IMG/VR virus record: IMGVR_UViG_3300034061_002046
Location: 1 to 29,299 of that record
DNA length: 29,299 nucleotides
Origin: a virus
Direction: 5' to 3' (one strand)
Under the pieces are notes generated by a model, which worked only from the letters and a program-made list of their open reading frames with translations, was not told the DNA's origin and did not search any database. The position numbers and the translations under genes were made by a program. Shown piece by piece: positions 2,188-19,348 of this stretch. How positions within the stretch are numbered: position 1 is the first letter of the stretch; every line of letters starts with the position of its first letter.

Positions 2188-2514
2188 ATGAGAACACAAA
2201 TTATTCCACAACAAAGCGTTATAGAAGACATTGTAAACATAGACCACAATTTGGGTAACTTTGTCAGATTGATGGTTGGTAATGGTATCGAAACAAATGG
2301 TAAATTTGAATTGTTACCCAGCCAGACCTTGGAAACAATTGTTATCGCAAATATACCTAACGGCATTATCAACGAAGATGGAACAAAAACAGATATTGTT
2401 GACTACCAAGAGTTGATGAGCGCAAACCCAACTTGGGCTCCTAATAAACCCGCTGGAGTTTTTCGTAAAGAAGACCTTTGGCATTTTGTTGACACAATCA
2501 GATCCAGAGGTTAA
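2188..2514 (+). CDS. small conserved-type phage protein of unknown function
   Basis: A 108-residue acidic protein starting at ATG 2188 with AAAGGA seven bases upstream, located between the tail-tip gene and a tail-associated gene. I do not recognise a domain with certainty. It is predicted soluble, without signal peptide or membrane segment; the C-terminal third is richer in charged and aromatic residues (FRKEDLWHFVDTI). Its stop is separated from the next ATG by a single base, with the next gene's ribosome binding site inside its last codons, so the two are translationally coupled. Position after a gpJ-like gene suggests a tail or tail-assembly role; this is inference from neighbourhood only. 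Confidence 0.7.
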   Translation: MRTQIIPQQSVIEDIVNIDHNLGNFVRLMVGNGIETNGKFELLPSQTLETIVIANIPNGIINEDGTKTDIVDYQELMSANPTWAPNKPAGVFRKEDLWHFVDTIRSRG

Positions 2515-2515
2515 T

Positions 2516-3448
2516 ATGCCCAATCTGAGAATAATTTATCAAAATCAGGTGGACTTGTCCACAACCACAATAACCTCCTCTAGCAATCAATCGTCCTCAA
2601 CCAGTATCAGTAATCTGAAGCTGGACACTAAAAGTCAAGTATGGAGAACCTCTCCAACTACAATCAGTAGTAACCAAGTACGTGGTAACTTGATAGTGGA
2701 CTTGGGATCTACAAAAACAGTGGGTGGAGTGGTGTTGGCGTTTACTAACTTGAATAGTAGCACTGCTACTGTGCGAGTAAGAGGCTATAACTCCGCTCCA
2801 ACTCACAGCAGCACCTCTGGATCAGATCAGATCAACTACCCCAGTATTACATCTGGAACCAGCGTGTTTGATACAACTGCAATCCTGTGCTGCCCCTGGA
2901 ATACTTGGGGAATATCAGACTGGGGAACAAACCCTGTAGGGTCCTCAAACTACAGTTATGGTGGTGGAACGTATGCAAGAGCTTGGTTTACACCTTCCAC
3001 AGTGAGATACCTCAGCATAGAGCTGGTAGATAATTATACCACTAGTGTCACTGGTAAATACATTGAGGTTTCCCGTTTGATTGTGGGCAACTACTGGACA
3101 CCCAAGTACAATGTGGGATATGGAGTAACTGCTGGTATAAAAGACATGAGTGAGCATGTTAGAACTGAGAGCGGCGACCTACTCACTACCCGTGGCCCCA
3201 TGTACCATTGTGTCAACTTTAACTTGGAGTGGTTGAGTGTTAGTGATCGTCAGGAAGTGGCAAAAATCTTGGCGGTCAATGGTATTAGTAGGCCAATGTT
3301 GATTAGCCTATTTCCAGACGGTACTGACTCAGAGGAATACGAACGAGAGCGAGCCCACCAAATCTATGGTAAGCTCTCACAGGTATCCCAGATGACCTAC
3401 AACAACCCCTTTATGTATTCTATTCCCCTAGATATCGAGGAAGTTTAA
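2516..3448 (+). CDS. tail-associated protein with galactose-binding-like beta domain
   Basis: The 310-residue protein begins at ATG 2516, preceded by AGAGG; the frame is open further upstream to a TTG at 2486 inside the previous gene, but the ribosome binding site supports 2516. The first ~200 residues are Ser/Thr-rich with beta-strand alternation (NLIVDLGSTKTVGGVVLAF resembles discoidin/galactose-binding folds), and the last ~100 residues (from about YGVTAGIKDMSEHVRTESGD) match a pattern I have seen in proteins next to gpJ-like genes of environmental siphophages. The probable role is a tail-tip or minor tail component with possible glycan contact. It is the last gene of its transcription unit, ending two bases before a terminator. 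The exact function is not known. Confidence 0.65.
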   Translation: MPNLRIIYQNQVDLSTTTITSSSNQSSSTSISNLKLDTKSQVWRTSPTTISSNQVRGNLIVDLGSTKTVGGVVLAFTNLNSSTATVRVRGYNSAPTHSSTSGSDQINYPSITSGTSVFDTTAILCCPWNTWGISDWGTNPVGSSNYSYGGGTYARAWFTPSTVRYLSIELVDNYTTSVTGKYIEVSRLIVGNYWTPKYNVGYGVTAGIKDMSEHVRTESGDLLTTRGPMYHCVNFNLEWLSVSDRQEVAKILAVNGISRPMLISLFPDGTDSEEYERERAHQIYGKLSQVSQMTYNNPFMYSIPLDIEEV

Positions 3449-3449
3449 A

Positions 3450-3480
3450 AATACCCCACCCACAAGGTGAGGTATTTTTT
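3450..3480 (+). terminator. rho-independent terminator 1
   Basis: An 11-bp stem (3450-3460 with 3466-3476, one C/A mismatch) closes a CACAA loop and runs into a T tract to 3480. It starts immediately after the stop of the tail-associated gene and ends three bases before a -35 box, so it separates the tail-tip operon from a new unit. Confidence 0.9.
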
Positions 3481-3483
3481 CAC

Positions 3484-3512
3484 TTGATCAAAGTATGCCC
3501 TTATGGTATAAT
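3484..3512 (+). promoter_or_regulatory. sigma70-type promoter 1 (TTGATC-17-TATAAT)
   Basis: A -35 box TTGATC (3484-3489), a 17-base spacer and a perfect -10 TATAAT (3507-3512) follow the T tract of the preceding terminator. The next gene starts at 3563. The spacer half nearest the -10 (ATGCCCTTATGG) is almost identical in the second promoter at 19262, more than spacing alone requires. Confidence 0.9.
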
Positions 3513-3562
3513 GGATACAAAATAAAAATGCACTATGTGGTGTATATCAACAAGGAGTTAAG

Positions 3563-3970
3563 ATGGCAACCACACTATACTTTGTTCAATCGGACACTCT
3601 GCCACAAATCAAATTGACACTTACAGATGAGGTTACTAGTGGGCCTAGAAATTTAACTGGCAAACAAGTAAGCTTACATGCCAAACCATCCACTGGAACC
3701 GGAGTGGCTTTTACGCGCCCTGCCAGCTTAGACCTAAATGGTACAGACAGAGCGAATGGTATAGCCTATATAGTATGGCAGGACGGTGATTTAAATCGAC
3801 CGGCTGGAACCTACACAGCAGAAATTGAGATTTATGATTCCGGTCAGAATACCAGAGAAACAGTATATGAAACTCTAAACTTGGTAATCCGTGAAGATAT
3901 CGCAGACATAACCCCACTTCCCACAACTCCGGGTAATACACCTCCGCCTAATGCTGCTCCTGGAGGTTAA
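3563..3970 (+). CDS. BppU-like (baseplate upper protein N-terminal-like) virion protein
   Basis: A 135-residue protein with a strong AAGGAG site seven bases before ATG 3563 and first in its transcription unit. The pattern FVQSDTLPQIKLTLTD, then NLTGKQVSLHAKPS, then PAGTYTAEIEIYD is that of the small Ig-like/BppU_N-type domain found in phage baseplate and neck accessory proteins, which acts as a structural adaptor joining fibres to the tail or head. The last 20 residues are a Pro-rich tail (TPLPTTPGNTPPP) that may be a flexible linker. The next gene follows after two bases, and the GGAGGT in this gene's final codons serves as its ribosome binding site. A related domain opens the second unit at 19349. 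The fold assignment is moderately sure; the exact partner is unknown. Confidence 0.65.
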   Translation: MATTLYFVQSDTLPQIKLTLTDEVTSGPRNLTGKQVSLHAKPSTGTGVAFTRPASLDLNGTDRANGIAYIVWQDGDLNRPAGTYTAEIEIYDSGQNTRETVYETLNLVIREDIADITPLPTTPGNTPPPNAAPGG

Positions 3971-3972
3971 CC

Positions 3973-5559
3973 ATGGCTTCTCTTATAGCTAGTATTGTTT
4001 CCAAAACTACAGCAACAATTGAAAAAGTTTCTAGTTTGGCAAATGTTGCTGGCTATAGGTCAAGAACTATAGCCAGTGAAATACTACAGTTAACCAAAAC
4101 TAAAGCCGAATATCTTACAGGAATATTCTTTGTACTCATTAGTAGGTCCTACGAAGAAGCAGTGAATTTAACAGAGACTGTAAGCCGACTTTTTGGTAAA
4201 AATTCAACAGATCAGGTCAATGTTACTGACTCTAACGACTTAAATGTTGGCAAGAATCCAGCTGATCAAACAAACATTAGTGATACACTAGACCGCACTG
4301 TAGCCTTCTACAGAGAGATTGATGATCAAACTAACATTTCAGAGTTTGATGTTATCGACTTCAATAAAAACTCTGATGATGGCATCAGTGTGTTTGAATC
4401 TGATGTAGTCAACTTCAACAAAAACCCTGACAATGGCATCGATGTACTTGAGACCAATGTTACAGATTTTAATAAAAACTCTGACGATGGTATCAGTGTA
4501 CTTGAATCCGCTGTAGCAGACTTCACCAAGAGCTCTGTTGACCAGTTCAATCTCAATGACTTTTTAGATCGCACTGTAGAGTTCTCCAGAAATTTTACAG
4601 ATCAAGTCGATGTAACAGACGACATAAACGGAGCAGCTGTTGATGATGATCAGGTAGCTGACTTCTTTAAGATTACTGGTGATCAAGCAAATATAGCAGA
4701 CGAATTAGATCGTACTGTAAACTTCTCCAGAGAGATTGTTGATCAAACCAGCATTTCAGAGTCTGATGTTATAGACTTCAACAAGAACTCTAATGACCTG
4801 TTAAACATAATTGAATCAGGTGATATTGATGTTGGTAAAAACTTAGACGATGAATTTAATATTACGGACGTTTTAAACAGACTGGTTCAGTTCTCTAGAG
4901 ATTTTACTGATCAGAGTGATATTTCAGAGTCCAGCGTAACAGACTTTAATAAAGGTCTAAGTGACTCAGCACAGTTGTCAGACATAATTTCTATATTACT
5001 ACAAACGCTGTACTCGTATCAAGATAGCCTTAATGTTACTGATAACCTAGATCGCACTGTACAGTTTTCCAGAGACTTTACAGATCAGTCAAACATTAGT
5101 GATGTTTTAGATTTATTAATGTCGTTTTCCAGAGTAGCGACTGACAATTTCAATATCAGCGAATCTAATATATTAAGCTTTAACAAAAGCGTATCCGACT
5201 CTGCCCAGTTATCTGATTCAATATCTATAATAATACAGATTTTGTACGATATTCAGGACAGCCTAAATATCAGCGATAATCTGACATACAACATGGACTA
5301 TGTCAGAGATTTTACAGATCAAGTCAATGTAACAGACGACGTAAACGGTGCAGCTGTTGATGATGATCAGATAGCTAGCTTCTTTAAAGTTATGAGTGAT
5401 CAGTTCAATTTAACTGACACCACAGAAAGTGCTTTTAACAAGCAGTCACAAGATAGTTTAAACCTATCAAACTCAGGAACAATCCTGAACCAGGATTATA
5501 TCAACGGACCCGACTACTTTCTAGAGGATTATGTAGGGGTTTCCAGGACAATTACATAA
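3973..5559 (+). CDS. long repeat fibre protein with about 22 DQxNISD repeats
   Basis: A 528-residue protein with two parts: residues 1-75, an Ala/Thr-rich, partly hydrophobic segment likely to be the attachment end, and residues 76-510, about 22 degenerate repeats of 18-21 residues. The repeat core is [ST]DQxN[IV][ST][DE], followed by a V/LD step and a [FN][NS][KR] step. Asp and Asn dominate, so the shaft is very acidic. Regular repeats of this length suit a trimeric or solenoid beta shaft, that is, a thin tail or head fibre. Two repeat blocks share a near-identical 79-bp stretch. The C-terminus (DYFLEDYVGVSRTIT) leaves the repeat and may be a tip or trimerisation end. No enzymatic motif is seen. 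Calling it a fibre is inference from architecture and neighbours. Confidence 0.75.
   Translation: MASLIASIVSKTTATIEKVSSLANVAGYRSRTIASEILQLTKTKAEYLTGIFFVLISRSYEEAVNLTETVSRLFGKNSTDQVNVTDSNDLNVGKNPADQTNISDTLDRTVAFYREIDDQTNISEFDVIDFNKNSDDGISVFESDVVNFNKNPDNGIDVLETNVTDFNKNSDDGISVLESAVADFTKSSVDQFNLNDFLDRTVEFSRNFTDQVDVTDDINGAAVDDDQVADFFKITGDQANIADELDRTVNFSREIVDQTSISESDVIDFNKNSNDLLNIIESGDIDVGKNLDDEFNITDVLNRLVQFSRDFTDQSDISESSVTDFNKGLSDSAQLSDIISILLQTLYSYQDSLNVTDNLDRTVQFSRDFTDQSNISDVLDLLMSFSRVATDNFNISESNILSFNKSVSDSAQLSDSISIIIQILYDIQDSLNISDNLTYNMDYVRDFTDQVNVTDDVNGAAVDDDQIASFFKVMSDQFNLTDTTESAFNKQSQDSLNLSNSGTILNQDYINGPDYFLEDYVGVSRTIT
4592..4670 (+). repeat. 79-bp direct repeat, copy A (copy B at 5309-5387)
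   Basis: This stretch and 5309-5387 code for the same block TDQVxVTDDxNGAAVDDDQ and differ at only a few bases. They lie 717 bp (239 codons) apart in the same frame. The higher identity than other repeats of the gene points to a recent internal duplication or conversion. Confidence 0.85.
5309..5387 (+). repeat. 79-bp direct repeat, copy B
   Basis: Second copy of the block at 4592-4670. Recombination between the two would remove exactly 239 codons and leave the fibre in frame. Confidence 0.85.
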
Positions 5560-5573
5560 CCAGAAAGGTTTTT

Positions 5574-6023
5574 ATGAATTCCCAAGAAAATTTGAAAATT
5601 ACAGGCAAGTTAAACATCGCAGTGACTGATGAAACGGGTGTGTTAAAAGACACTCGCGAAATTGACAACTTAGTAGTTACAAGCGGTTTAACCCATATTG
5701 TTAGCAGAATGGCGTCCGCCTCTGATACAGCCATGAGTCACATGGCGGTCGGAACAGGTGCAACTGCCGCTGCAGCTGGTAACACCACTCTCGGCACCGA
5801 AACTGCCCGGGTGGCTCTGAGCAGTACAACTCCTGGCACAACCAACATTGTGTATTCAGCCAGCTTTGGCGCTGGTGTTGGTACTGGAGCCCTAACAGAG
5901 GCAGGAATTTTTAATGCGTCCAGTGCTGGTACCCTGCTGTGCCGTACCGTGTTCAGTGTGATCAACAAGGCCGCCAACGACACCATGAGTATTACTTGGA
6001 CTGTTACCTTGGCAGCAGTTTAA
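5574..6023 (+). CDS. conserved phage tail/virion protein (MSHMAVGTG family)
   Basis: A 149-residue protein with AAAGG upstream of ATG 5574. The order of features matches a widespread phage structural family: an N-terminal strand pair, NLVVTSGLTHIVSRM, then MSHMAVGTGATAAAAGNTTL, TEAGIFNASSAGTLLCRTVF, and a final TMSITWTVTL. These proteins usually lie among tail-fibre genes and are annotated as tail or fibre-associated; no enzymatic activity is known to me. Length fits the family and both ends look complete. It is the last gene before terminator 2, so it closes the first accessory unit. Family membership is recalled from pattern, and the role in the particle is inferred. Confidence 0.7.
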   Translation: MNSQENLKITGKLNIAVTDETGVLKDTREIDNLVVTSGLTHIVSRMASASDTAMSHMAVGTGATAAAAGNTTLGTETARVALSSTTPGTTNIVYSASFGAGVGTGALTEAGIFNASSAGTLLCRTVFSVINKAANDTMSITWTVTLAAV

Positions 6024-6031
6024 TCTTTACC

Positions 6032-6065
6032 AATAATGGCGAGAAATCCTCGCCATTATTTTTAT
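6032..6065 (+). terminator. rho-independent terminator 2
   Basis: A perfect 12-bp stem, AATAATGGCGAG (6032-6043) with CTCGCCATTATT (6049-6060), has the five-base loop AAATC and is followed by TTTAT. It follows the stop of the preceding gene by eight bases. A second weaker hairpin with A/T-rich arms follows at about 6060-6086. Confidence 0.9.
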
Positions 6066-6108
6066 AGGGCTGGTGGCCTTATAAAAATAATGAATAACAG
6101 GAGTAGAA

Positions 6109-7356
6109 ATGGCAGCAATTACCACAAGACAAACCGCAGGTACGGGTGCCACAGTTGCTGGAGTACCACTCACCAACACTCAGTTGGACACCAACTTTAT
6201 TAATCTAAACACAGAGCTAGTTTCAGCAGCTAGTACTAGTGGTAGTTATAGTAATCCAGCTTGGATTACATCTCTAGATGAAGCTAAGGTATTACCCGCA
6301 CAAACAGGTCAAAGTGGTAAAGTTTTGGTTACCAACGGAACAGCAACCAGCTGGGGTACAGTAAGCGGCGGTATTACATACACCAGAATAACCACTAACA
6401 CTACTTTAACAGACAAGCAAGGCGTAGTTGCAGATACTACTGGTGGCACATTTACAGTCACACTTCCAGCTTCACCAGCAACTGGTGCGCAGGTAGCTAT
6501 TGCTGATGGTGCTAATTGGGGTACCAATAGCTTAACGGTAGCTAGAAATGGTAGCACTATTGAAGACTACGCAGAGGACTTGGTATTAGATATTACAGGT
6601 GCTTTAGTCAATTTAATTTATGACGGTAATACTTGGGAAGTCTACACTCAAACCGGTATTGGACAAAGTACTATACCTGGTGGTTTTAATTATACTAGAG
6701 TGACTAGTGCTATAACAGTTGTAGATAAACAAGGTATTATTGCAGATACTACTGGTGGTAGTTTCACAATCACTCTTCCATCTACGCCAACAACTGGTAC
6801 ACAAATTGCAATTGCTGATGGAGCTAGCTGGGGTACCAACAATCTAACAGTTGCCAGAAATGGTAATACTATAGAAAATCTGGCAGAAGATTTATTGTTA
6901 GATATTACAGGTGCGTTAGTGAACTTTATTTACGATGGTAATACTTGGGAAGTCTACACACAGGTAGGCGGCGTAGGTGGCACTATTCTTGCAGTAAGTA
7001 ATGGAGGTACTGGTGTAACAACTAGCACTGGTTCTGGTAGCACAGTTTTGTCTATAACTCCAACATTAGTCACTCCAATTCTCGGCACTCCTACATCAAT
7101 TACCTTAACCAATGCAACAGGATTACCGCTGACTACCGGTGTCACTGGCACATTACCTGTGGCCAACGGTGGCACAGGCGCAGCTACATTTACAACCAAT
7201 AATGTATTACTGGGTAATGGGACTTCTTCCTTTCAAAGCATAGCTCCTGGTGCATCAGGTAATGTTTTGGCGTCAAATGGAACTACTTGGCAATCTGTTG
7301 CACCAAGCATGTCAACAGGAAAAGCTATTGCAATGGCAATAGTATTTGGAGGATAA
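6109..7356 (+). CDS. tail fibre-type protein with duplicated domain and GGTG repeats
   Basis: The 415-residue protein starts at ATG 6109 with AGGAG upstream. Residues 1-86 form an attachment-like region. Residues 87-190 and 191-288 are two tandem copies of a ~100-residue beta domain common in cyanophage-like virion proteins (GVVADTTGGTFTVTLP, IADGANWGTNSLTVARNG, LIYDGNTWEVYTQ). Residues 296-400 carry SNGGTGVTT and LPVANGGTG blocks followed by a VLLGNGT segment; these GGTG blocks recur in the proteins at 12821 and 14712. The short end KAIAMAIVFGG is hydrophobic. No catalytic motif is visible. Its last codons provide the GGAGG for the next gene. Likely a fibre or decoration protein; the receptor is unknown. 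Confidence 0.75.
   Translation: MAAITTRQTAGTGATVAGVPLTNTQLDTNFINLNTELVSAASTSGSYSNPAWITSLDEAKVLPAQTGQSGKVLVTNGTATSWGTVSGGITYTRITTNTTLTDKQGVVADTTGGTFTVTLPASPATGAQVAIADGANWGTNSLTVARNGSTIEDYAEDLVLDITGALVNLIYDGNTWEVYTQTGIGQSTIPGGFNYTRVTSAITVVDKQGIIADTTGGSFTITLPSTPTTGTQIAIADGASWGTNNLTVARNGNTIENLAEDLLLDITGALVNFIYDGNTWEVYTQVGGVGGTILAVSNGGTGVTTSTGSGSTVLSITPTLVTPILGTPTSITLTNATGLPLTTGVTGTLPVANGGTGAATFTTNNVLLGNGTSSFQSIAPGASGNVLASNGTTWQSVAPSMSTGKAIAMAIVFGG
6367..6972 (+). repeat. tandem duplication of a ~104-codon domain
   Basis: Two in-frame copies (6367-6678 and 6679-6972, offset 312 bp) code for closely similar domains beginning GGxxYTRx and ending NTWEVYTQ. Identity is highest around the codons for ADTTGG and YDGNTWEVYTQ and lower between them. 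Confidence 0.85.
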
Positions 7357-7359
7357 TTT

Positions 7360-7713
7360 ATGGCAGCACCTAATATAGTAAACGTAGCCACAATAAATGG
7401 TAAAACGGCAGGTTTAGCTGTAACGGCATCGGCCAGTGCCATAGTCGCTAATGCTAGTAGCAGTAACAAAGTCTTAAAAATAAACGCTCTCTATGTCAGC
7501 AATGTTGCTGCCAGCAATGGTTGGGTAACTGTAGATGTTTTTAAGAATGCAACTACTGCATTTAGAGTTGGTTTTCAAATCACAGTGCCTACAAATGCTA
7601 CGTTGGATGTCCTAAGCAAACCTATCTACCTAGAAGAAAATGATTCGCTGAGGCTGACTGCCAATGCTGTTTCTACAATAGAAGCAGTGGTGTCTTATGA
7701 GGACATTAGCTAA
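7360..7713 (+). CDS. small virion protein of a cyanophage-type family
   Basis: A 117-residue protein opening MAAPNIVNVATINGKT. Its layout (ASAIVANASSSNKVLKIN, VSNVAASNGWVTVDVF, YLEENDSLRLTA, ending VVSYEDIS) matches a family of small beta-sandwich structural proteins seen repeatedly in cyanophages and other aquatic phages. The ATG at 7360 is served by GGAGG inside the last codons of the upstream gene, so translation is coupled. No signal peptide or membrane segment is present. It probably decorates the tail or head surface or acts as an adaptor; its biochemical function has not been described to my knowledge. Confidence 0.7.
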   Translation: MAAPNIVNVATINGKTAGLAVTASASAIVANASSSNKVLKINALYVSNVAASNGWVTVDVFKNATTAFRVGFQITVPTNATLDVLSKPIYLEENDSLRLTANAVSTIEAVVSYEDIS

Positions 7714-7715
7714 CT

Positions 7716-8627
7716 ATGCCAACTTTTCCTAATACAAGTGGTGCTCCAGGTCGCTGGAGGTTGGGTGACGTTCGTGAAGCTGTTATGGGCAGCAATTGGC
7801 CTACGTTTGGAGTTTTAATTGACTACCTTGTAGTTGCTGGCGGTGGTGGTGGCGGTGGTGCATATGGCGGCGGCGGCGGTGCAGGCGGATTACTTTCTGC
7901 AAGTTCTTATCAGATCTCACCAAGTACTGTTTTTACTGTAACAGTAGGTGGAGGTGGAGCAAGTAATGGAAATCAACCGGGTGGCCAAGGTGGAACCTCC
8001 AGTATTATAGGAACAGGCCTAAGTGTATCCTCAACAGGTGGTGGTTTTGGGGGTTCCGAGCGCCCTGTATCTGGCAGTCACCAAGGTGGTAATGGCGGTA
8101 GTGGGGGTGGTAATGCCTACAGTATGGGCCCTGGTACTGGTATTGTTGGACAGGGTAATAACGGTGGTCAAGGTTCTTACAACGCCAGCACGCTTACGAT
8201 TGGAGGTGGTGGAGGTGGTGGCTCAGGAGCTGTTGGTGGTTCTTATAATTCATCTACAGGTGTTGCCGGTAGTGGCGGCACAGGCTCGTCCAGTACCATA
8301 ACAGGATCATCTGTTATTTATGCCGGTGGCGGGGGTGGGGCTTCAGGAGATGGAAGTTACACAGGAACCGCAGGAGGCGGTGGTAGTGGGGGCGGCGGTG
8401 CGGGTGCGCAATGGGCTACAACCACAGGCAGTAGTGGCACTACTAATAGAGGCGGGGGCGGAGGTGGTGGTGCGGGTAATGCGGGCACGGGAGGAGCTGG
8501 AGGTAGTGGCGTAGTCATCATCTCGGCACCACGAGCTGCAGCATCCACCACAGGGTCGCCTACTGTCACAACTAACGCAGGTCGTACGATCTACACATTC
8601 ACTGCCTCAGGTTCAATAACATTCTAA
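7716..8627 (+). CDS. glycine-rich adhesin-like tail protein 1
   Basis: A 303-residue protein: residues 1-36 are an N-terminal module (MPTFPNTSGAPGRW ... GSNWP) shared with the next two genes, residues 37-270 are dominated by Gly runs of 5-8 after IDYLVVAG, and residues 274-303 form a terminal module (TTGSPTVTTNAGRTIYTFTA). Runs of this kind can pack as polyglycine-II helices, as shown for the receptor-binding adhesin gp38 of phage S16; similar ORFs are labelled glycine-rich domain proteins in many phages. It is therefore a candidate receptor-binding or tip protein. The ribosome binding site is weak (GAGGA, some 13 bases upstream). Overlapping frames look open only because of the GGT/GGC codons and are not genes. 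Confidence 0.75.
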   Translation: MPTFPNTSGAPGRWRLGDVREAVMGSNWPTFGVLIDYLVVAGGGGGGGAYGGGGGAGGLLSASSYQISPSTVFTVTVGGGGASNGNQPGGQGGTSSIIGTGLSVSSTGGGFGGSERPVSGSHQGGNGGSGGGNAYSMGPGTGIVGQGNNGGQGSYNASTLTIGGGGGGGSGAVGGSYNSSTGVAGSGGTGSSSTITGSSVIYAGGGGGASGDGSYTGTAGGGGSGGGGAGAQWATTTGSSGTTNRGGGGGGGAGNAGTGGAGGSGVVIISAPRAAASTTGSPTVTTNAGRTIYTFTASGSITF

Positions 8628-8636
8628 GGTGTGCAT

Positions 8637-10406
8637 ATGCCTCAATTTCCTTCAACAACAGGTGCATCAGATATATGGAGTACTCTAGATCAGTACAGAG
8701 CGCAGCTGGGGAGTAACTGGCCTAATATAGGAGCCCTAGTTGACTACCTAGTAATTGCTGGCGGTGGTGGTGGTTCTTTTGAAGGTGGCGGTGGTGCTGG
8801 TGGTTATAGAGCCTCATCAAGTTTTTCAGTTTCAGCCGGTTCACCTATAACTGTAACAGTGGGTGGTGGAGGAAGCGGTAGCACAGGTGCTCCAAATGGT
8901 CCGTGGCCTCCGGGAACCAACGGCAGTAATTCTGTGTTTAGCTCTATCACATCCAATGGAGGTGGTGCTGGCGGTGGCAGTACGAGTGGTACCTCTGTAG
9001 GAAGCGCAGGCGGAAGCGGCGGTGGTGCTGGTCAAGACGGTTCAGGTGTTACCAGGGCAGGTGGTGCCGGAACTGTTGGGCAAGGTAACGCTGGAGGAAC
9101 TTCCACTACTGGAGGCCCCACATATCCTGGTTCGGGAGGTGGCGGAGCAGGTGCAGTAGGTGGTAATAATAACTCGAGTAGTAATTTAGGCGGCGCTGGA
9201 GGTGCGGGTGCAACATCAAGTATAACAGGTTCTTCAGTTACATATGCTGGCGGCGGCGGAGGCGGTGCTGACTTTTATCGTAGCGGTGCAACTCTAGGTG
9301 CAGGCGGTGCTGGAGGCGGTGGTGCAGGTGCGGCTAACAACAGCACAGGTATTGCAGGAACAACCAATACTGGTGGTGGTGGAGGTGGCGGTTCTGGCTG
9401 GTCTGGTGCCGGACAAGCTGGTAATGGAGGAGCAGGCGGCTCTGGTGTTGTTATCCTTAGATCACAGTACGCTGTCACTGCAACTACGGGTTCTCCTACT
9501 GTAACCTACAACGGATCTAATAGTATTTATACTTACACAGCATCTGGAACTATTACATTTAGCCCTGCACTGCTAAATCCACCTGCATCAGTTGAATACT
9601 TAGTAGTCGCTGGTGGTGGCGGTGGTGGGGCAAATAATGCAGCATCATCTGGCTCTAACTCTGTTTTCTCTACAATTACGTCTGCGGGCGGTGGTGGAGG
9701 TGGCGGAGATGGTTATCCAAGCAGTAGTTCTGTCGGATATGGTCTAAGTGGTGGCAGTGGCGGTGGCAGTGGATGGAATAACAATGGTGCTGGTGGACCA
9801 AGTTTTGGAGCAGGCAATACTCCTTCCACTTCTCCATCACAAGGCAATAATGGCGGACATTCGGGTACAAATAACGGTGGTGGCAATTATAGCAGTGGCG
9901 GTGGCGGTGGAGCTGGTGCAGTTGGAGGCAATGCTAGCGGTTCTTCAAGTATAGGTGGTGTAGGTGGTGCAGGCTCCTCTTCATCTATAACAGGAAGTTC
10001 CATAACATATGCAGGTGGTGGCGGCGGAGGAGCCTATCCAGGAACTGCCGGGGCTGGCGGTGCTGGTGGAGGTGGTGCTGGTAATGTATCAGTTGCTGCA
10101 ACTGCCGGAACTGCGAACACTGGGGGCGGTGGCGGCGGTCGTGCAGTAGGTGGAGGTGGTGGAGCAGGTGGTTTTAGAACGGCAACTGGGTTTTCCGTAG
10201 CTACTGGAACACAATTAACCGTAACAGTTGGTGGTGGTGGTAGTGGTGGTACAACCGGTGGTGCTCAAGGTGGCTCTGGTATTGTTGTATTGCGTTACGC
10301 AGACACGTTCGATCTTGCTAGAGCTACAACAGGCTCTCCAACAATAACTACATCTGGTGGATTCCGAATTTACACTTTTACGGCCAGTGGTTCAATTACA
10401 TTTTAA
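8637..10406 (+). CDS. glycine-rich adhesin-like tail protein 2, two fused Gly-rich modules
   Basis: The start is placed at ATG 8637, seven bases after AAGG; a GTG at 8631 in the same frame would only add two residues. The 589-residue protein carries the shared N-terminal module (MPQFPSTTGASDIW ... GSNWP), a first Gly-rich module to about residue 311 ending TGSPTVTYNGSNSIYTYTA, and a second from residue 319 (VEYLVVAGGGG) ending TGSPTITTSGGFRIYTFTA. Each module on its own is as long as the whole Gly-rich part of the preceding protein, so this is a tandem fusion. In module 2 the segment AGGFRTATGFSV...LTVTVGGGG stands near the end rather than near the beginning. Predicted role: host-surface adhesin. 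Confidence 0.75.
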   Translation: MPQFPSTTGASDIWSTLDQYRAQLGSNWPNIGALVDYLVIAGGGGGSFEGGGGAGGYRASSSFSVSAGSPITVTVGGGGSGSTGAPNGPWPPGTNGSNSVFSSITSNGGGAGGGSTSGTSVGSAGGSGGGAGQDGSGVTRAGGAGTVGQGNAGGTSTTGGPTYPGSGGGGAGAVGGNNNSSSNLGGAGGAGATSSITGSSVTYAGGGGGGADFYRSGATLGAGGAGGGGAGAANNSTGIAGTTNTGGGGGGGSGWSGAGQAGNGGAGGSGVVILRSQYAVTATTGSPTVTYNGSNSIYTYTASGTITFSPALLNPPASVEYLVVAGGGGGGANNAASSGSNSVFSTITSAGGGGGGGDGYPSSSSVGYGLSGGSGGGSGWNNNGAGGPSFGAGNTPSTSPSQGNNGGHSGTNNGGGNYSSGGGGGAGAVGGNASGSSSIGGVGGAGSSSSITGSSITYAGGGGGGAYPGTAGAGGAGGGGAGNVSVAATAGTANTGGGGGGRAVGGGGGAGGFRTATGFSVATGTQLTVTVGGGGSGGTTGGAQGGSGIVVLRYADTFDLARATTGSPTITTSGGFRIYTFTASGSITF

Positions 10407-10415
10407 AGGATAAAG

Positions 10416-12431
10416 ATGCCTGATTTTCCTTCGACTACAAGTGCTTCAGGCATCTGGACACTTAAAAAACATAAACGTGCAAAACAGGGTAGCAATTGGC
10501 CAGGTACAGCCGATCTATATTTTCCCTATGTCACCATGCTGCTGCCCGGCAACGGCACCAACGGAGCGCAGAACAACACGTTCCTAGACAGCAGCACCAA
10601 CAACTTCAGCATCACCCGTAACGGCAACACTACGCAGGGTACGTTTGCTCCGTATGGGGCGAACTGGAGTAACTTCTTTGATGGGAGTGGGGATTATTTA
10701 AGTGCGCCTGATAACGCTGCTTGGGTTTTGTCTGGTGACTTTACTATTGAGTCATGGGTATACCCATCAGGTAGTGGAATTCGTGTTATTGCGTCTCAGT
10801 GGCCGGGGGCTGGAGGCGCAACAAACCAAGCATTTTACTTTAGCCTCGCAACTGGTAACTACATAAACTTTACATATGGTTTGGGTTCCGCAAACATCAA
10901 TGTAACAGGCACGTCCGTAACAGCTAATTTAAATTCATGGAATCATGTTGCTGTAACGCGGTTTGGCACAACAGTGCGTTTGTTTGTTAATGGTGTACAA
11001 GATTCCACTACTGCCACAGTAAGTGGGGCATTAAATAACTCAACGAGTTCTTTATATATTGGCATTCTAAATCCAACAGACGGTTTTATATTTACAGGAT
11101 ATATTTCAGATTTGCGATTGCTTAATGGCACCGCACAATACACTTCTAACTTCACGCCACCTTCCTCTCCCCTCACCGCCATCACCAACACCTCTCTGCT
11201 TACTTGCCAGAGCAACCGCTTCATTGATAACAGCGCCAACAACTTCACCATTACACGCAACGGCGATGTAAGCGTCCAAGTCTTCAGCCCGTTCTCTCCG
11301 ACTGCCTCGTATGCTGCAGGGACAAATGGTGGCAGTGGGTACTTTGATGGGACTGGGGATTACCTGACTGTGCCAAGCAACGCTGCACTTGCAGTTGGGT
11401 CAACATTTACAGTGGAATGTTGGGTATATAGAACTGTTGGATCAACAATCCAGTGGCTTGCTGGAAACAACGCTGGAAGTGGTAATACTAATTGGCTTTT
11501 GGAAATAGAAGCAAACAACACTGTTTATGGCGGCGGTTGGTTGTCTGGAACACAAACGGTTTCAACAGTCCCAGTGGCAGCATGGACGCATATTGCAATG
11601 GTGTGCGATAGCGGCTCGTTAAAGATATATATTAATGGCATTCAGTCTGGTACTGCGGGATCAGGTTCAAATTTTACAGCGTCCGACATAACGTACATAG
11701 GACAGTATTCTGGTGCTTCTAGGAATTTGACTGGATATATTTCAAATTTGCGTGTTCTCAAAGGCACCGCCCTCTACACCGCCAACTTCACTCCACCCAC
11801 AGCACCTCTCACCGCAATCACCAACACCAGCCTCCTGCTGAACTACACCAACGCAGGCGTCATTGACAACGCGATGATGAACAACCTTGAGACGGTGGGT
11901 AATGCGCAGATCAGCACCACGCAGAGTAAATGGGGTGGGTCTTCTATTGCGTTTGATGGGACGGGTGATTGGTTGCTTGCCCCGTCATCGCCAAACTTTG
12001 CCATCGATGGCAATTTCACAGTTGAGATGTGGGTGTATTTCAATAACACCACAACCTACGTATTCTTTGATATGCGCGGGATAGGCACCGCAGCCCCAAA
12101 CAACCCGGTTTTGTTCTGGTCTAACTCCGCAAGCAAAATACAAGCGTATATCAATGATGACTTTCGCATTACCTCTGGCACTTTGAATACGGCACAGTGG
12201 TATCACGTTGCTTTGACTCGCAGCGGCACCACCGTAACCTTGTATGTCGATGGCGTGTCACAGGGTACATATACATATTCAGCGTCGATAACCCAGCAAG
12301 CACTTTATGTGGGTACGGGGTCCGGTCTTAACTCCTTCAACGGATACATCGATGACCTGCGCATCACCAAAGGCTTTGCCCGCTACACCGCCAACTTCAC
12401 CCCGCCCTCAGGACCATTTTTTACAAGATAA
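10416..12431 (+). CDS. triple LamG/concanavalin A-like lectin tail protein
   Basis: A 671-residue protein with AAAGGA before ATG 10416. Residues 1-36 are the shared N-terminal module (MPDFPSTTSASGIW ... GSNWP). Three LamG-type jelly rolls follow at about 88-236, 310-446 and 513-655, each with the opening FDGxGDYL/W, the central FTxExWVY, the WxHxAxx step, VNG/ING/VDG, and the closing GYIxxLRxxxGxxxYTxNFTPP. Such domains bind glycans or proteins, so this is a likely surface-glycan adhesin. Linker regions at the domain edges are visibly GC-richer than both the flanking genes and the domain cores, which suggests mosaic origin. It is followed by a small partner-like gene after seven bases. LamG assignment is firm; the ligand is unknown. 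Confidence 0.85.
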   Translation: MPDFPSTTSASGIWTLKKHKRAKQGSNWPGTADLYFPYVTMLLPGNGTNGAQNNTFLDSSTNNFSITRNGNTTQGTFAPYGANWSNFFDGSGDYLSAPDNAAWVLSGDFTIESWVYPSGSGIRVIASQWPGAGGATNQAFYFSLATGNYINFTYGLGSANINVTGTSVTANLNSWNHVAVTRFGTTVRLFVNGVQDSTTATVSGALNNSTSSLYIGILNPTDGFIFTGYISDLRLLNGTAQYTSNFTPPSSPLTAITNTSLLTCQSNRFIDNSANNFTITRNGDVSVQVFSPFSPTASYAAGTNGGSGYFDGTGDYLTVPSNAALAVGSTFTVECWVYRTVGSTIQWLAGNNAGSGNTNWLLEIEANNTVYGGGWLSGTQTVSTVPVAAWTHIAMVCDSGSLKIYINGIQSGTAGSGSNFTASDITYIGQYSGASRNLTGYISNLRVLKGTALYTANFTPPTAPLTAITNTSLLLNYTNAGVIDNAMMNNLETVGNAQISTTQSKWGGSSIAFDGTGDWLLAPSSPNFAIDGNFTVEMWVYFNNTTTYVFFDMRGIGTAAPNNPVLFWSNSASKIQAYINDDFRITSGTLNTAQWYHVALTRSGTTVTLYVDGVSQGTYTYSASITQQALYVGTGSGLNSFNGYIDDLRITKGFARYTANFTPPSGPFFTR

Positions 12432-12438
12432 GGACAAC

Positions 12439-12807
12439 ATGGCTCACTTTGCGCAACTAGACGAAAACAACACAGTGACTCAAGTTATTGTGGTTCATAA
12501 CAATGAAACTCTAGATAATGGTATAGAATCAGAAGCCAAAGGCGTAACATTCTGTCAATCTCTATTTCCTGGAACAAACTGGAAACAAACGTCCTACAAT
12601 GCCAACATTCGCAAGAACTATGCGGGTATTGGGTTTGTTTATGACTCAACCAGGGACGCTTTCATTCCTCCCAAACCATATAACAGCTGGGTGTTAAACG
12701 AGACCACCTGTACTTGGACAGCTCCAACACCTTACCCCACAGACGGTAAACGGTATACTTGGGATGAAACCCAACAAGTTTGGATAGAGATCCAAACACC
12801 ATTATGA
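12439..12807 (+). CDS. small virion-associated protein with YPTDGK motif, copy 1
   Basis: The frame is open upstream into the LamG gene, but ATG 12439 with AAGGA just before it gives a 122-residue protein starting MAHFAQLDENNTVTQVIVV. This is a familiar cyanophage-type family: NYAGIGFVYDSTRDAFIPPK, PYNSWVLNETTCTW, then the C-terminal YPTDGKRYTWDETQQVW. It sits directly after a large fibre gene and before a GGTG protein; the same order is seen at 14374-15050 with another member. The position recalls tail-fibre assembly proteins (Tfa, gp38) placed after their fibre gene, but family members also occur as structural proteins, so a chaperone role is only inference. Confidence 0.75.
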   Translation: MAHFAQLDENNTVTQVIVVHNNETLDNGIESEAKGVTFCQSLFPGTNWKQTSYNANIRKNYAGIGFVYDSTRDAFIPPKPYNSWVLNETTCTWTAPTPYPTDGKRYTWDETQQVWIEIQTPL

Positions 12808-12820
12808 ATTGGAACAACAT

Positions 12821-13642
12821 ATGCCAAATCTTTCGAACATAGTTTCACCAGGCAATGTACTTACCGCTTCCAGTTCAAATATACTTACTAACAAGACTAT
12901 CAGTGGTAGCGCTAACACAGTCACGAACATACCTCTATCTACAGGAGTGACAGGTACATTGCCTGTAGCTAACGGAGGAACCGGAGTAACAACTAGTACT
13001 GGTTCAGGAAATAGTGTTTTGTCCACTAGCCCCACATTGGTTACGCCAATTTTAGGCACGCCTCAGTCTGTTACACTGACTAACGGAACTAATTTGCCGT
13101 TGTCAACGGGTGTCACAGGAACACTACCTATAGCAAATGGCGGCACTGGTGCTGTAACTCTTGCAGGTGCAAATATACCAGTTACGACTGTAGCAAATAC
13201 ATTTACTGGAACTCAAACCTTTAGTGGTAGTTCTAGCGCACTTACAATGATACTTAATAATGCAGCCGAAGTTTGCAATATCTCGGCAACTGCTGCCACA
13301 GGTACTATCAACTATGATGTAACTACACAGTCTGTATTGTACTATACCAGCAACGCTACAGCCAATTGGACTGTTAACTTCAGAGCTTCGTCTGGTACTA
13401 GTTTAAACACAATAATGTCTGTAGGACAAACTGTAACAATAGCTTTTATGGTGACTCAGGGAACTACTGCATTCTTTAACAATGTTGTGCAAGTAGATGG
13501 TAGTCCTGTAACACCTAAATGGCAGGGCGGTACAGCTCCAACTGCAGGTAACGTATCTAGTATAGACAGCTATACCTACACTATTATTAAAACTGCCAAT
13601 GCGGCATTTACAGTGTTGGCTGCTCAAACACAGTTTAAGTAG
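12821..13642 (+). CDS. GGTG-repeat tail protein, copy 1
   Basis: ATG 12821 gives 273 residues beginning MPNLSNIVSPGNVLTASSSN; a TTG at 12809 in frame is possible but alignment to the paralog at 14712 (MANLSNIITPTNVLTASS) favours 12821. Domains: an N-terminal anchor (1-40), two GGTG blocks (LPVANGGTGVTTS, LPIANGGTGAV) like those in the fibre at 6109, then residues 125-273, a beta domain ending DSYTYTIIKTANAAFTVLAA that is common in phage virion proteins of this type. It is probably a short fibre or decoration protein. The ribosome binding site is weak (GGA), with start four codons beyond the stop of the upstream gene, so coupling is likely. Confidence 0.75.
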   Translation: MPNLSNIVSPGNVLTASSSNILTNKTISGSANTVTNIPLSTGVTGTLPVANGGTGVTTSTGSGNSVLSTSPTLVTPILGTPQSVTLTNGTNLPLSTGVTGTLPIANGGTGAVTLAGANIPVTTVANTFTGTQTFSGSSSALTMILNNAAEVCNISATAATGTINYDVTTQSVLYYTSNATANWTVNFRASSGTSLNTIMSVGQTVTIAFMVTQGTTAFFNNVVQVDGSPVTPKWQGGTAPTAGNVSSIDSYTYTIIKTANAAFTVLAAQTQFK

Positions 13643-13648
13643 AATATT

Positions 13649-14371
13649 ATGCCATTAATTAGTAGAAGAGGCGGTGCTGCCGCTCGTGGTCTTGGGTTGT
13701 TTGGGCGTCAAAAAGTACTCACAACTTTTACGTTTCCAGCTGGAACCAGCACTTGGACAGCGCCTGGTGGTGTAACTTCATTGGTCAGTGCAGTAGGTAA
13801 AGGTAGTGACGGAGTTAGTGACTACACAACAGGTGGTGGTGGTCCTATATGGAGAGTCTATTTCGGAAATAGTGGAGTCAATCTTTCCGGAGGTTCTGCG
13901 CCTCCTGCACCTATAAGTTACGACACGATATACTCTAATATGATGTCGGTAGTAAATAATATTAATAATGCTACTGGTATTATTGCGTATAATCACACTG
14001 CGTTTGGATTTATAAGAATTGCATTTGATAATAAGTGGAGTGAGCTGATCTACCCTAATGTTGGGTATGGTGGTCAAATTGTAGCCGGTAGTGCTACATA
14101 TTCCTGGGCACTACCTACCAGTGGAGCACTAACTTGGTCTGCTGGCTACGCAAATCAACAGTTTAATGCAGATGTTAGCTATACTTTTTATATATCAGGA
14201 AGCTCAGGTAGCAATACTACTGGTTTTGCTTTAAGTTTTTCTGGTGGTGGCTACTCTGGAGGTACTGGCACTCCTGCATCAAACACCACCTACAATAATG
14301 TTTCAGTAATACCTGGAACTACTTACACTATTGTTAACAATGGTGCCCTAACAATAACTTACTATGTATAA
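13649..14371 (+). CDS. tail fibre-like protein with RRGGAAARG N-terminus
   Basis: A 240-residue protein. The basic, Gly/Ala-rich start MPLISRRGGAAARGLGLFG resembles N-terminal anchors of small phage fibre proteins; it is followed by FPAGTSTWTAPGGVTSLVS, the W-x-x-P-x-GV signature that opens many glycine-rich phage adhesins, although the usual long poly-Gly region is replaced by a globular, Asn/Tyr-rich domain (residues ~60-165) and a beta-rich end (SFSGGGYSGGTGTP, TYTIVNNGALTITYYV). It lies between the two copies of the small-protein/GGTG pair and is itself followed by such a pair, so it may be the fibre belonging to that pair. Ribosome binding site is not obvious. Confidence 0.65.
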   Translation: MPLISRRGGAAARGLGLFGRQKVLTTFTFPAGTSTWTAPGGVTSLVSAVGKGSDGVSDYTTGGGGPIWRVYFGNSGVNLSGGSAPPAPISYDTIYSNMMSVVNNINNATGIIAYNHTAFGFIRIAFDNKWSELIYPNVGYGGQIVAGSATYSWALPTSGALTWSAGYANQQFNADVSYTFYISGSSGSNTTGFALSFSGGGYSGGTGTPASNTTYNNVSVIPGTTYTIVNNGALTITYYV

Positions 14372-14373
14372 TT

Positions 14374-14709
14374 ATGTATGCAAAAATAAAAGATAATGTA
14401 GTAATACAATTTCCGTATGGATTTGATGAATTGCAGTCTGAATTTGACAAAGTCTTAACGGGAAACATAGATATATTAAACACCTTTAAGCTTTCTAATG
14501 CATACTTAGATGGTTTTACAATCTACACTGTAACCCAGCAAGAAAAGCCTTTAATGCATTCGGCAGGTGAAAAGCATATCTTGGCCGAATTGCCGGTATT
14601 AGTAAATGATCAATGGACACTTGTTTGGCAAGTAGAAGCAGTTCAGTATCCTACTGATGGAAAAACTTATAAATGGAACCCGACAAGTAGAGCTTGGGAT
14701 GAGGAGTAA
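14374..14709 (+). CDS. small protein with YPTDGK motif, copy 2 (MYAKI-type)
   Basis: A 111-residue protein beginning MYAKIKDNVVIQFPYGFDEL, a pattern of a common small phage family (MYAKxxxNxVxxxPYxxxDL). The C-terminus YPTDGKTYKWNPTSRAWDEE matches the end of the protein at 12439 while the middles differ, so the two share a C-terminal module. It starts two bases after the stop of a fibre-like gene without a clear Shine-Dalgarno site, which suggests coupled translation, and contains the GAGGAG used by the next gene. Likely fibre-associated, perhaps an assembly factor; unproven. Confidence 0.7.
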   Translation: MYAKIKDNVVIQFPYGFDELQSEFDKVLTGNIDILNTFKLSNAYLDGFTIYTVTQQEKPLMHSAGEKHILAELPVLVNDQWTLVWQVEAVQYPTDGKTYKWNPTSRAWDEE

Positions 14710-14711
14710 AC

Positions 14712-15050
14712 ATGGCAAATCTTTCCAATATTATTACACCTACCAATGTTCTAACAGCTAGTAGTACCAACACTCTTAGCAATAAAGTGATTAGTGGTAC
14801 TAACAACACTATTACTAACGTTTCACTCACAACAAGTGTAACGGGCACACTACCAGTATCTAGTGGTGGCACTGGATTGTCTAGCACTCCAGCTAACGGT
14901 CAAATCGTCATTGGAAATGGCACTGATTTTACTCTTGCAACACTGACCCCTGGCGTTGGAATCGGTATCACAAATGCCAGTGGATCAATTACAATAAGAT
15001 CTATAGAAACCAATACTCGATCTTTTGCTTATTTTTGCGGAAATTTTTAA
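14712..15050 (+). CDS. GGTG-repeat tail protein, copy 2 (short)
   Basis: A 112-residue protein with GAGGAG before ATG 14712. Residues 1-55 align without gaps to the start of the 273-residue protein at 12821 (NLSNI, NVLTASS, TGTLPVSSGGTG). The remainder is different: ANGQIVIGNGTDFTLATLTP and GIGITNASGSITI are of a type found in many phage tail proteins. So the paralogs share the attachment part and differ in the distal part. It lacks the C-terminal beta domain of copy 1, but ends in a natural way and is not an obvious truncation. Confidence 0.7.
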   Translation: MANLSNIITPTNVLTASSTNTLSNKVISGTNNTITNVSLTTSVTGTLPVSSGGTGLSSTPANGQIVIGNGTDFTLATLTPGVGIGITNASGSITIRSIETNTRSFAYFCGNF

Positions 15051-15059
15051 GGAGTAAAT

Positions 15060-15371
15060 ATGCCAACAGGTATTTTGGGTCAATCGGCCCCAGCGGCAAA
15101 CACAAATACTACGGTATATACCGTTCCTGCGAGTGTTGCTGCTACTTTCAACATCAGTATTGTGAATATTGGTACTGGTTCTGCAAGTGTTACTGTTGCA
15201 ATATCTGCAACCAGCACACCTGCTGTTTCTGAATATATAGAGTGGCAGTCGCCAATACCGCCTGGAGGTGTACTTGAACGAGGTGGACTTGTTGCCCAAA
15301 CCGGCCGTAACGTTGTAGTCAACTGTTCTACTGCCTCTTGTTCGGTGTCTGTTTATGGTTTTGAACAATAA
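15060..15371 (+). CDS. small beta-sandwich virion protein
   Basis: A 103-residue protein with a strong AAGGAG site before ATG 15060. The pattern GILGQSAPAANTNTTVYTVP, then VNIGTGSASVTVAI, EYIEWQSPIPPGGVLERGG and a final VSVYGFE belongs to a family of small structural proteins frequent in cyanophage genomes. It resembles the 117-residue protein at 7360 in length and strand pattern, though not closely in sequence. Predicted soluble. It precedes the 953-residue propeller protein by 12 bases and may be its adaptor or a decoration protein; this is inference. Confidence 0.7.
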   Translation: MPTGILGQSAPAANTNTTVYTVPASVAATFNISIVNIGTGSASVTVAISATSTPAVSEYIEWQSPIPPGGVLERGGLVAQTGRNVVVNCSTASCSVSVYGFEQ

Positions 15372-15383
15372 GGATCAATCCTA

Positions 15384-18245: not shown

Positions 18246-19000
18246 CAGTTCCAATTCAATCTCAAATATTTAATCCTGTTACAGGCGTATTCGGCACTGG
18301 CCAAATTTCTTGGTTTAATTCTAGTAGTATCTGGAAAGTACCCGCAGGAATTGCCAAGTGCAGAGTAAGAGTCTGGGGTGCTGGTGGTAGTGCTACTACT
18401 GGTGGAGGTGCTGGCGGTGGATTTGCCATGAGAACACTCTATGATTTATCTGGAGTTACTTCTGTGGCTGTAACGGTTGGCACAGCCGCCACTAACACAA
18501 CAGGTGGGACTTCCTCATTTGGCAGCTATGTTAGTGCAACAGGTGGTTCTAATACAACCGCAGGTGGTACAGGCACAGGTGGTGATGTTAATAATACCGG
18601 AGGTGCTGGGCCAAACACAAACCAAGGCGGTGGTGGTGGAGTTGCCTCGTTTTTTGGCAATGGTGGATCGGGATCTTCTGGCAATGGGAACAACGGTACT
18701 GGCGGTGCTGGCGGTGGTGGTGGCAGTCAAACATCTTATTCAGGAGGAGGCGGGTTTTTATCTGTAGGTACTACGGGAATTGTGACTAGTGGAACACCAA
18801 CTGCTCCAACAACTGGTATAAATGGTTCGTTCTCTATCGACTTTATTGGTTGTGGAGGTGGTGGTGCATATAATGTTAGTGGTACAAATGGTGGAGGTGG
18901 CCCTGGAGGTGGTAGCGGAGTCCAGCCCGGTGCATTTCCCGGAGGTGGTGGCGGAGGCACAGGCCTTGGTGCACCCGGACTAGTAATCGTGGAGTATTAA
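18242..19000 (+). CDS. glycine-rich adhesin-like tail protein 3
   Basis: A 252-residue protein whose ATG overlaps the stop of the propeller gene (ATGA). Residues 1-35 are an anchor different from the MPxFP module of the earlier Gly-rich proteins; residues 36-60 carry the classic opening WKVPAGIAKCRVRVWGAGGS, and the rest is rich in Gly runs with Asn/Thr, ending GLGAPGLVIVEY, the usual last strand of glycine-rich phage proteins. The fold is probably a polyglycine-helix sandwich on a tail tip. It is immediately followed by a 57-residue gene, as expected for an adhesin with a dedicated small partner. The open frames overlapping it on both strands are shadows of the Gly codons. Confidence 0.75.
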   Translation: MTVPIQSQIFNPVTGVFGTGQISWFNSSSIWKVPAGIAKCRVRVWGAGGSATTGGGAGGGFAMRTLYDLSGVTSVAVTVGTAATNTTGGTSSFGSYVSATGGSNTTAGGTGTGGDVNNTGGAGPNTNQGGGGGVASFFGNGGSGSSGNGNNGTGGAGGGGGSQTSYSGGGGFLSVGTTGIVTSGTPTAPTTGINGSFSIDFIGCGGGGAYNVSGTNGGGGPGGGSGVQPGAFPGGGGGGTGLGAPGLVIVEY

Positions 19001-19001
19001 A

Positions 19002-19175
19002 ATGAAAGCACGAATTCAAAACGGTATTGTTGTTGAAATACTACAAGCACTTCCGGGACACGCAATTGAGGACTGTTTTCATCCAAGTATCTTATTACAG
19101 TGTGTAGACTTTGAAGAGAACATGGAAGTTGGCCAACCACTGCCTGTTCCTCAAACTGATACAGAACCACAGTGA
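19002..19175 (+). CDS. 57-residue putative fibre partner protein
   Basis: Start ATG 19002 with GGAG (18991-18994) upstream; TGA at 19173-19175. The protein opens MKARIQNGIVVEILQALPGH, similar in layout to the start of the MYAKI-type protein at 14374 (basic residue, I, xNxVVxxL), and ends in a Pro/Thr/Gln-rich tail (PLPVPQTDTEPQ). It lacks the YPTDGK module of the two other small proteins. It lies directly behind a glycine-rich adhesin and is the last gene of the unit before terminator 3. The frame, ribosome binding site and tight spacing support it as real despite its size. Function unknown; assembly partner by position. Confidence 0.7.
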   Translation: MKARIQNGIVVEILQALPGHAIEDCFHPSILLQCVDFEENMEVGQPLPVPQTDTEPQ

Positions 19176-19223: not shown

Positions 19224-19258
19224 AAAAAATACCCAGCCCACAAAGCTGGGTATTTTTT
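19224..19258 (+). terminator. rho-independent terminator 3
   Basis: A perfect 14-bp stem, AAAAAATACCCAGC (19224-19237) with GCTGGGTATTTTTT (19245-19258), and a seven-base loop containing CACAA. It resembles terminator 1 in loop, in the ATACCC/GGGTATTTTTT arms and in being followed three bases later by a -35 box. The preceding 48 bases after the 57-residue gene hold nothing I can identify. Confidence 0.95.
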
Positions 19259-19261
19259 CGC

Positions 19262-19290
19262 TTGACCCTACGATGCCCTTGTGGTATAAT
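19262..19290 (+). promoter_or_regulatory. sigma70-type promoter 2 (TTGACC-17-TATAAT)
   Basis: TTGACC (19262-19267), a 17-base spacer and TATAAT (19285-19290). The region ATGCCCTTGTGGTATAAT differs from promoter 1 at one base. The leader to the next start has a possible AGAGCT/AGCTCT hairpin (19306-19328) ahead of the AAAGGAG ribosome binding site. Confidence 0.9.
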
Positions 19291-19348
19291 AGTACCAAAA
19301 TGACAAGAGCTTTAAAAATTACAGCTCTATATAATAAAGGAGTGCCCA

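Follow-up and report, generated by a model that had tools for sequence, protein, structure and literature searches.

According to our analysis, the terminator-promoter cassette that occurs twice in the window (the whole stretch of 29,299 nucleotides analysed here, a linear 29.3-kb viral record) is probably a transcription-unit boundary and, at the same time, the invariant right-hand border of a slot in which fibre genes are swapped. We regard as likely a model in which each cassette marks a fixed boundary between transcription units, located in the tail/adhesin region of a clade of uncultured freshwater phages that are probably T5-like. At this boundary, a hairpin followed by a T-run would close the left-hand unit, which ends in a variable gene of the adhesin type. 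An extended -10 promoter would then initiate transcription of the conserved genes on the right, and the resulting transcript would begin with a leader stem-loop and a strong ribosome-binding site. The cassette and the right-hand genes are conserved and the left-hand gene is not, a pattern which suggests that crossovers in the cassette or leader swap the fibre genes on the left while the right-hand genes remain expressed as before. In the subclade to which the window belongs, there are two such borders (A and B), each before a conserved downstream gene set, and they would delimit two exchangeable slots.

Both copies can be read directly from the sequence as a terminator hairpin, three bases, a TTGAYC box, a 17-base spacer, TGGTATAAT, a leader stem-loop and AAGGAG (Table 1), so that the two-copy arrangement described in the initial annotation is present, together with the AAGGAG-led gene that it had placed after each copy. 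The three bases between the stem and the -35 box are CAC in A (TTGATC at 3484–3489) and CGC in B (TTGACC at 19262–19267). TG precedes the -10 box in both copies, and the promoters show all the features of the sigma-70 extended -10 type, i.e., a TTGACA-like -35 box, a 17-nt spacer and TGN before TATAAT. By its position, the hairpin of A closes the upstream unit (gene 2486–3448). Over 77 nt, A and B share 78% identity (E = 2.8e-13), and the DNA flanking A had no match in the DNA flanking B, in agreement with the earlier description of the flanks as otherwise unrelated. The core pattern TTGAYCN5ATGCCCTTRTGGTATAAT, with no more than three mismatches, was found twice in the window and not once in 100 shuffles; since it was derived from both copies, the result tells no more than that a pair of this kind is not due to chance. 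Generic sigma-70 promoter scans of the window gave matches not above the level of chance, and the case therefore rests on the composite and its conservation.

Table 1. Features of cassettes A and B and of the neighbouring genes in the window.
Feature	Position	Strand	Details
Variable gene left of A	2486..3448	+	phrog_8610; weak galactose-binding-like match
Cassette A, terminator-like hairpin and T-run	3447..3480	+	stem 3447-3479, loop CACAA; fold -14.1 kcal/mol
Cassette A, predicted extended -10 sigma-70-like promoter	3484..3512	+	TTGATC-N17-TATAAT (3507-3512); spacer motif TGCCCTTATGG
Cassette A, predicted 5' leader stem-loop	3528..3545	+	fold z -2.3
Shine-Dalgarno sequence (AAGGAG) preceding gene 3563	3552..3557	+	from sequence; ATG at 3563
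First gene after A, beta-sandwich protein	3563..3970	+	10 relatives, all behind the A promoter
Block between A and B	3973..19000	+	conserved genes after A (3563, 3973, 5574), then variable fibre-like genes
Small gene (57 aa) to the left of B, within the variable slot	19002..19175	+	from sequence
Cassette B, terminator-like hairpin and T-run	19224..19259	+	stem 19224-19258, loop CCACAAA; fold -18.4 kcal/mol
Cassette B, predicted extended -10 promoter	19262..19290	+	TTGACC-N17-TATAAT (19285-19290); spacer motif TGCCCTTGTGG
Cassette B, predicted 5' leader stem-loop	19306..19328	+	AGAGCT...AGCTCT; fold z -2.4
Shine-Dalgarno sequence (AAGGAG) preceding gene 19349	19337..19342	+	from sequence; ATG at 19349
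First gene after B	19349..19936	+	phrog_1084; relatives called tail-fibre or structural protein

The genes that flank the cassettes are structural. The structure model of the first protein after A gave weak fold matches to the baseplate proteins of NF5 and 80alpha and to entry 4v96 (E 0.006–0.04). No Pfam or NCBIfam profile supported a BppU-type domain and thus the label “BppU-like” used in the initial annotation, and no profile similarity was detected between the 3563 and 19349 proteins. A homologue of the 19349 gene is present in 86 cassette contigs, where it lies downstream of the cassette. In other contigs, members of the family of gene 2486–3448 either directly adjoin the single cassette on its left or are absent, and the DNA at 19002–19175 was found to be unrelated to that of contigs L032, G017, or G021. 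Long glycine-rich repeats (GGTGGTGG-type) were noted in the fibre-like genes at 7716–10406 and 18242–19000 of the window, and a repeat with a 30-nt unit at 178–387.

The cassette is widespread among uncultured viruses. A loose search pattern (3' arm and T-run, TTGA, and TGGTATAAT) retrieved 109 viral contigs, about 105 of which have the cassette architecture. Nearly all of the 109 also have in common traits that go beyond this pattern, namely a CCC..GGG hairpin, GCATTGACAA, the spacer GCCCTTRTGG, and ATACCAAAAT after the -10 box, or close variants of these. The same pattern gave 40 matches in a genome collection of 257 billion bases, none of which was cassette-like, and this collection provided no clue to the host. 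At the DNA level, the cassette was found in no isolate phage or plasmid of GenBank, where the matches at E 0.1–5 are those expected by chance. A match in the phage Melnitz was rejected because it is situated inside a coding gene. The use of CCCTTRTGGTATAAT alone as a diagnostic feature was also rejected: it is found outside the clade as well, in some cases within promoters whose -35 box is preceded by GGGG, and hence the spacer motif alone is not diagnostic.

The best-sampled relative (G003, 99.7 kb) has a terminase about 49% identical to those of T5-like Vibrio phages and a helicase about 38% identical to its T5-like counterparts; it also encodes a tip protein that is lambda-J-like and contains an NlpC/P60 domain. 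Based on these three proteins, the clade is probably T5-like, a placement that comes from this one relative rather than from the window, which is without a terminase. A freshwater origin is suggested by the names of the nearest isolates and not by the contig records.

In relation to the genes on its right, the cassette has a constant position. In 89 of the 90 contigs that extend for 700 nt or more downstream of the cassette, the cassette precedes a gene from one of four syntenic families, namely those of a membrane/coiled-coil protein, of phrog_1084 (gene 19349), of gene 3563, and of the L012-type gene. The cassette stands at block borders, and its anatomy suits the insulation and restart of transcription that the initial annotation proposed for such places. 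In each of the 16 contigs that were searched whole (most of them 44–102 kb), one cassette promoter was found, with a degenerate A copy in addition in G016. The contigs of the main clade (44–102 kb) carry a single GCCCTTRTGG-type cassette each, and those of the window's subclade carry two to a few. As judged from its constant neighbours and its single occurrence in the main clade, the cassette is fixed and not free-moving, and what moves appears to be the DNA to the left of it.

The left border is marked by an abrupt end of homology. When the contigs were aligned on the -10 box, 141 pairs were at least 90% identical across the cassette and rightward. The homologous coverage of these pairs decreased from 1.00 in the last 100 nt up to the -10 box to 0.26 in the 100 nt adjoining on the left, and the rightward coverage was 0.85–1.00 over the first 2 kb. 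For the pairs with at least 95% identity, the left coverage was 0.71. The pairs are not independent of each other, but the step persists once redundancy is removed: of 113 pairs with a right-hand likeness of at least 0.9, 101 are unrelated on the left. At 43 of 51 loci, the closest right-hand relative does not share the left side, and at the other 8 it does. Cassette B of the window and its counterpart in L032 are 97% identical over 9.9 kb to the right and unrelated to the left of -71; cassette A and its counterpart in L106 (which matches G017 here) are 98.5% identical to the right and unrelated to the left of -65. The C-terminal 120 residues of the upstream gene products form 21 unrelated, adhesin-like clusters, and the genes ending at the cassette include those for long proteins of 600–1800 aa, chaperone-like short genes, and genes for phrog_8610 proteins. 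By position and make-up, these left-hand genes are of the adhesin type, and they presumably have a role in binding.

The sharp left edge could in part reflect the end of fast-diverging adhesin genes rather than exchange, and only the near-identical pairs (12 of the 41 with at least 95% identity) argue directly for replacement. In an alternative reading, the cassette is an ordinary operon boundary that has no role in exchange, where the terminator-promoter is under selection and the adjacent adhesin genes diverge fast in place. Functional signals would account for its conservation without recombination, and the left edge does coincide with the end of a coding gene. We nevertheless consider this explanation rather unlikely, because near-identical right sides are joined to wholly unrelated left genes (L032 and the window, L106 and the window, L026 and L088) and because the left-hand families differ in kind (chaperone-like, phrog_8610, and long fibre proteins). 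We consider it very improbable that the 60-bp unit is mobile in its own right, whether by hopping or by being copied to new sites. Although there are two copies in one genome, and the hexamer CTACGA is common to cassette B of the window and cassette A of G018, the syntenic position before the same four families, the single cassette per main-clade contig, and the grouping of A and B each with their positional orthologues are at odds with such mobility. The initial annotation proposed a mobile or duplicated regulatory unit; according to our analysis, the duplication is real and appears to be ancient, whereas the mobility is contradicted by the constant downstream families.

In eight contigs (the window, G016, G017, G018, G019, G021, G022, and G023), cassette A precedes the 3563 gene and cassette B precedes the 19349 gene, and the two cassettes are 5.6–15.8 kb apart. 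The A promoter lies directly upstream of the gene in all 10 contigs holding relatives of the 3563 gene. The A hairpin was found in about 6 of these 10 copies; it is present in G016, G017, G019, G021, and G023 and missing from G018, G022, G024, and G025. The resemblance of A copies to A copies and of B copies to B copies suggests an old duplication that predates the window's subclade and not a recent hop. One possible scenario, to which we give somewhat less than even weight and which is compatible with the exchange model, is that the A-type and B-type downstream modules came to stand in tandem in the subclade's ancestor through one unequal crossover at the cassette. Consistent with this, L065 and L012 have a single cassette followed by homologues of genes of the A module (5574 in both, 3973 in L012), in main-clade contigs the B module follows a lone cassette, and the eight contigs hold both; however, in L012 and L065 the gene directly after the cassette is a different one (membrane/coiled-coil). 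Terminator-promoter joints were also observed before a tape-measure-like gene in G023 (16586) and G025 (10630), with similar ones in G021 (6427) and G022 (5582). They have a different hairpin of the GCCCGC/GCGGGC type, and such joints seem to be general in the subclade.

The leader that follows the promoter also contains a predicted structure in the window's subclade. In all nine of the different A-type leaders that were folded, a hairpin is predicted at the same place with changed pairs, and paired changes were seen in the B-type leaders of G017, G019, G022, and G023. Stems were present in all the A and B leaders folded (GCACCA/TGGTGT, GCATTAC/GTAATGT, AGAGCT/AGCTCT, and GAAGAC/GTCTTC). The covariation was read by inspection of single folds; an automatic alignment of the leaders misaligned the stems and yielded no consensus structure. 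The leaders of the main clade fold barely better than their shuffles (median z of -0.6), and the leader hairpin is therefore claimed for the window's subclade only. A predicted stem-loop before AAGGAG would fit a role in protection of the message.

One part of the spacer differs from the rest of the cassette. From the hairpin into the gene, cassette B of the window matches that of L032 at every base except the six after TTGACC, all of which differ (CTACGA at 19268–19273 in the window, AAGTTC in L032). Across 95 main-clade cassettes, the hexamer positions hold 0.17–0.74 bits, as compared with 1.8–2.0 for their neighbours, which are partly fixed by the search pattern, although GCATTGACAA and GCCCTT largely are not. 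The hexamer was more divergent than adjacent third codon positions of the downstream gene (0.21 versus 0.03, 0.40 versus 0.08, and 0.49 versus 0.16 per site), with a two-peaked distribution. In total, 48 hexamers were recorded over the 108 cassettes read; they are C-rich, and G is absent at two positions (main-clade set). Hexamers of contigs with a shared left side differed at 0, 0, 1, 0, and 3 positions, and those with unshared left sides at a mean of 3.0; thus, the hexamer mostly travels with its left partner, which suits a crossover to the right of it. The pair L081 and L103, in which both sides are shared and the hexamer differs, runs against this linkage. It is conceivable, though improbable in our estimation, that these six bases are a real fast-switching element, diverging in discrete blocks between near-invariant bases, and not neutral filler. 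In that case, they might serve a phage-coded regulator as a specificity tag, or they might be a scar left by some dedicated process of exchange.

In lambdoid phages, promoters and terminators at the module joints of mosaic genomes are known from morons and from conserved boundary sequences. Morons are inserted genes that carry their own promoter and terminator, whereas the cassette divides two operons and needs no inserted gene. The PeSL motifs, reportedly described by Arbiol in 2010 and Comeau in 2014, appear to be the nearest known idea. According to papers that cite this work (PMC4503421, PMC3950731), they are promoter-terminator composite motifs of T4-like phages associated with modular shuffling of the flanking genes. 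Like them, the cassette is a short intergenic promoter with a terminator-type stem-loop that is tied to the shuffling of flanking genes. In contrast to PeSLs as described in those papers, it belongs to a clade that is probably T5-like and not to T4-like myoviruses; it occurs once to a few times per contig, whereas PeSLs are dense in regions of intense shuffling; the genes that flank it are structural (adhesin) ones, as against the early gene clusters of PeSLs; and it is fixed with respect to the right-hand genes, whereas mobile PeSLs would have copies at non-homologous positions.

By location, the nearest counterpart is a conserved non-coding motif, a predicted terminator, which lies directly downstream of swapped receptor-binding genes in several genera of lytic E. 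coli phages and has been proposed as a recombination hotspot (PMC10408124). The cassette likewise places a terminator-like motif just downstream of exchanged genes, which here would encode receptor-binding proteins. That motif comprises 20 nt and a terminator only, whereas the cassette combines a terminator with a promoter in about 60–120 nt, has a leader hairpin in the window's subclade, belongs to an unrelated uncultured clade, and exists in a two-slot version. The cassette would thus extend exchange-permitting promoter-terminator joints from the early regions of T4-like phages to the structural genes of another lineage, with a two-slot form. It may also serve as a landmark for host-recognition genes in a large uncultured clade, the gene that ends at it being a candidate adhesin.

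Several minor observations concern hairpins and promoters. The loop of the A terminator in G017 (CACCTTGTAGGTG) looks inverted as compared with that of L048 and the window (CACCCACAAGGTG), an apparent flip of the hairpin inside; it can be seen between 3447–3480 of the window and L106/G017 (L165, about 1165–1200). A second promoter family, with TTGACA, an 18-nt spacer of the CCAAAATTATGTG type, and GTATAAT, was noted in G004, G005, G008, and G023, with up to three members per contig, away from the structural genes. In L132, L133, L140, and other unrelated contigs, GGGG precedes TTGACA and CCCCTTRTGGTATAAT follows it, so that the -35 box is situated between an inverted GGGG/CCCC pair.
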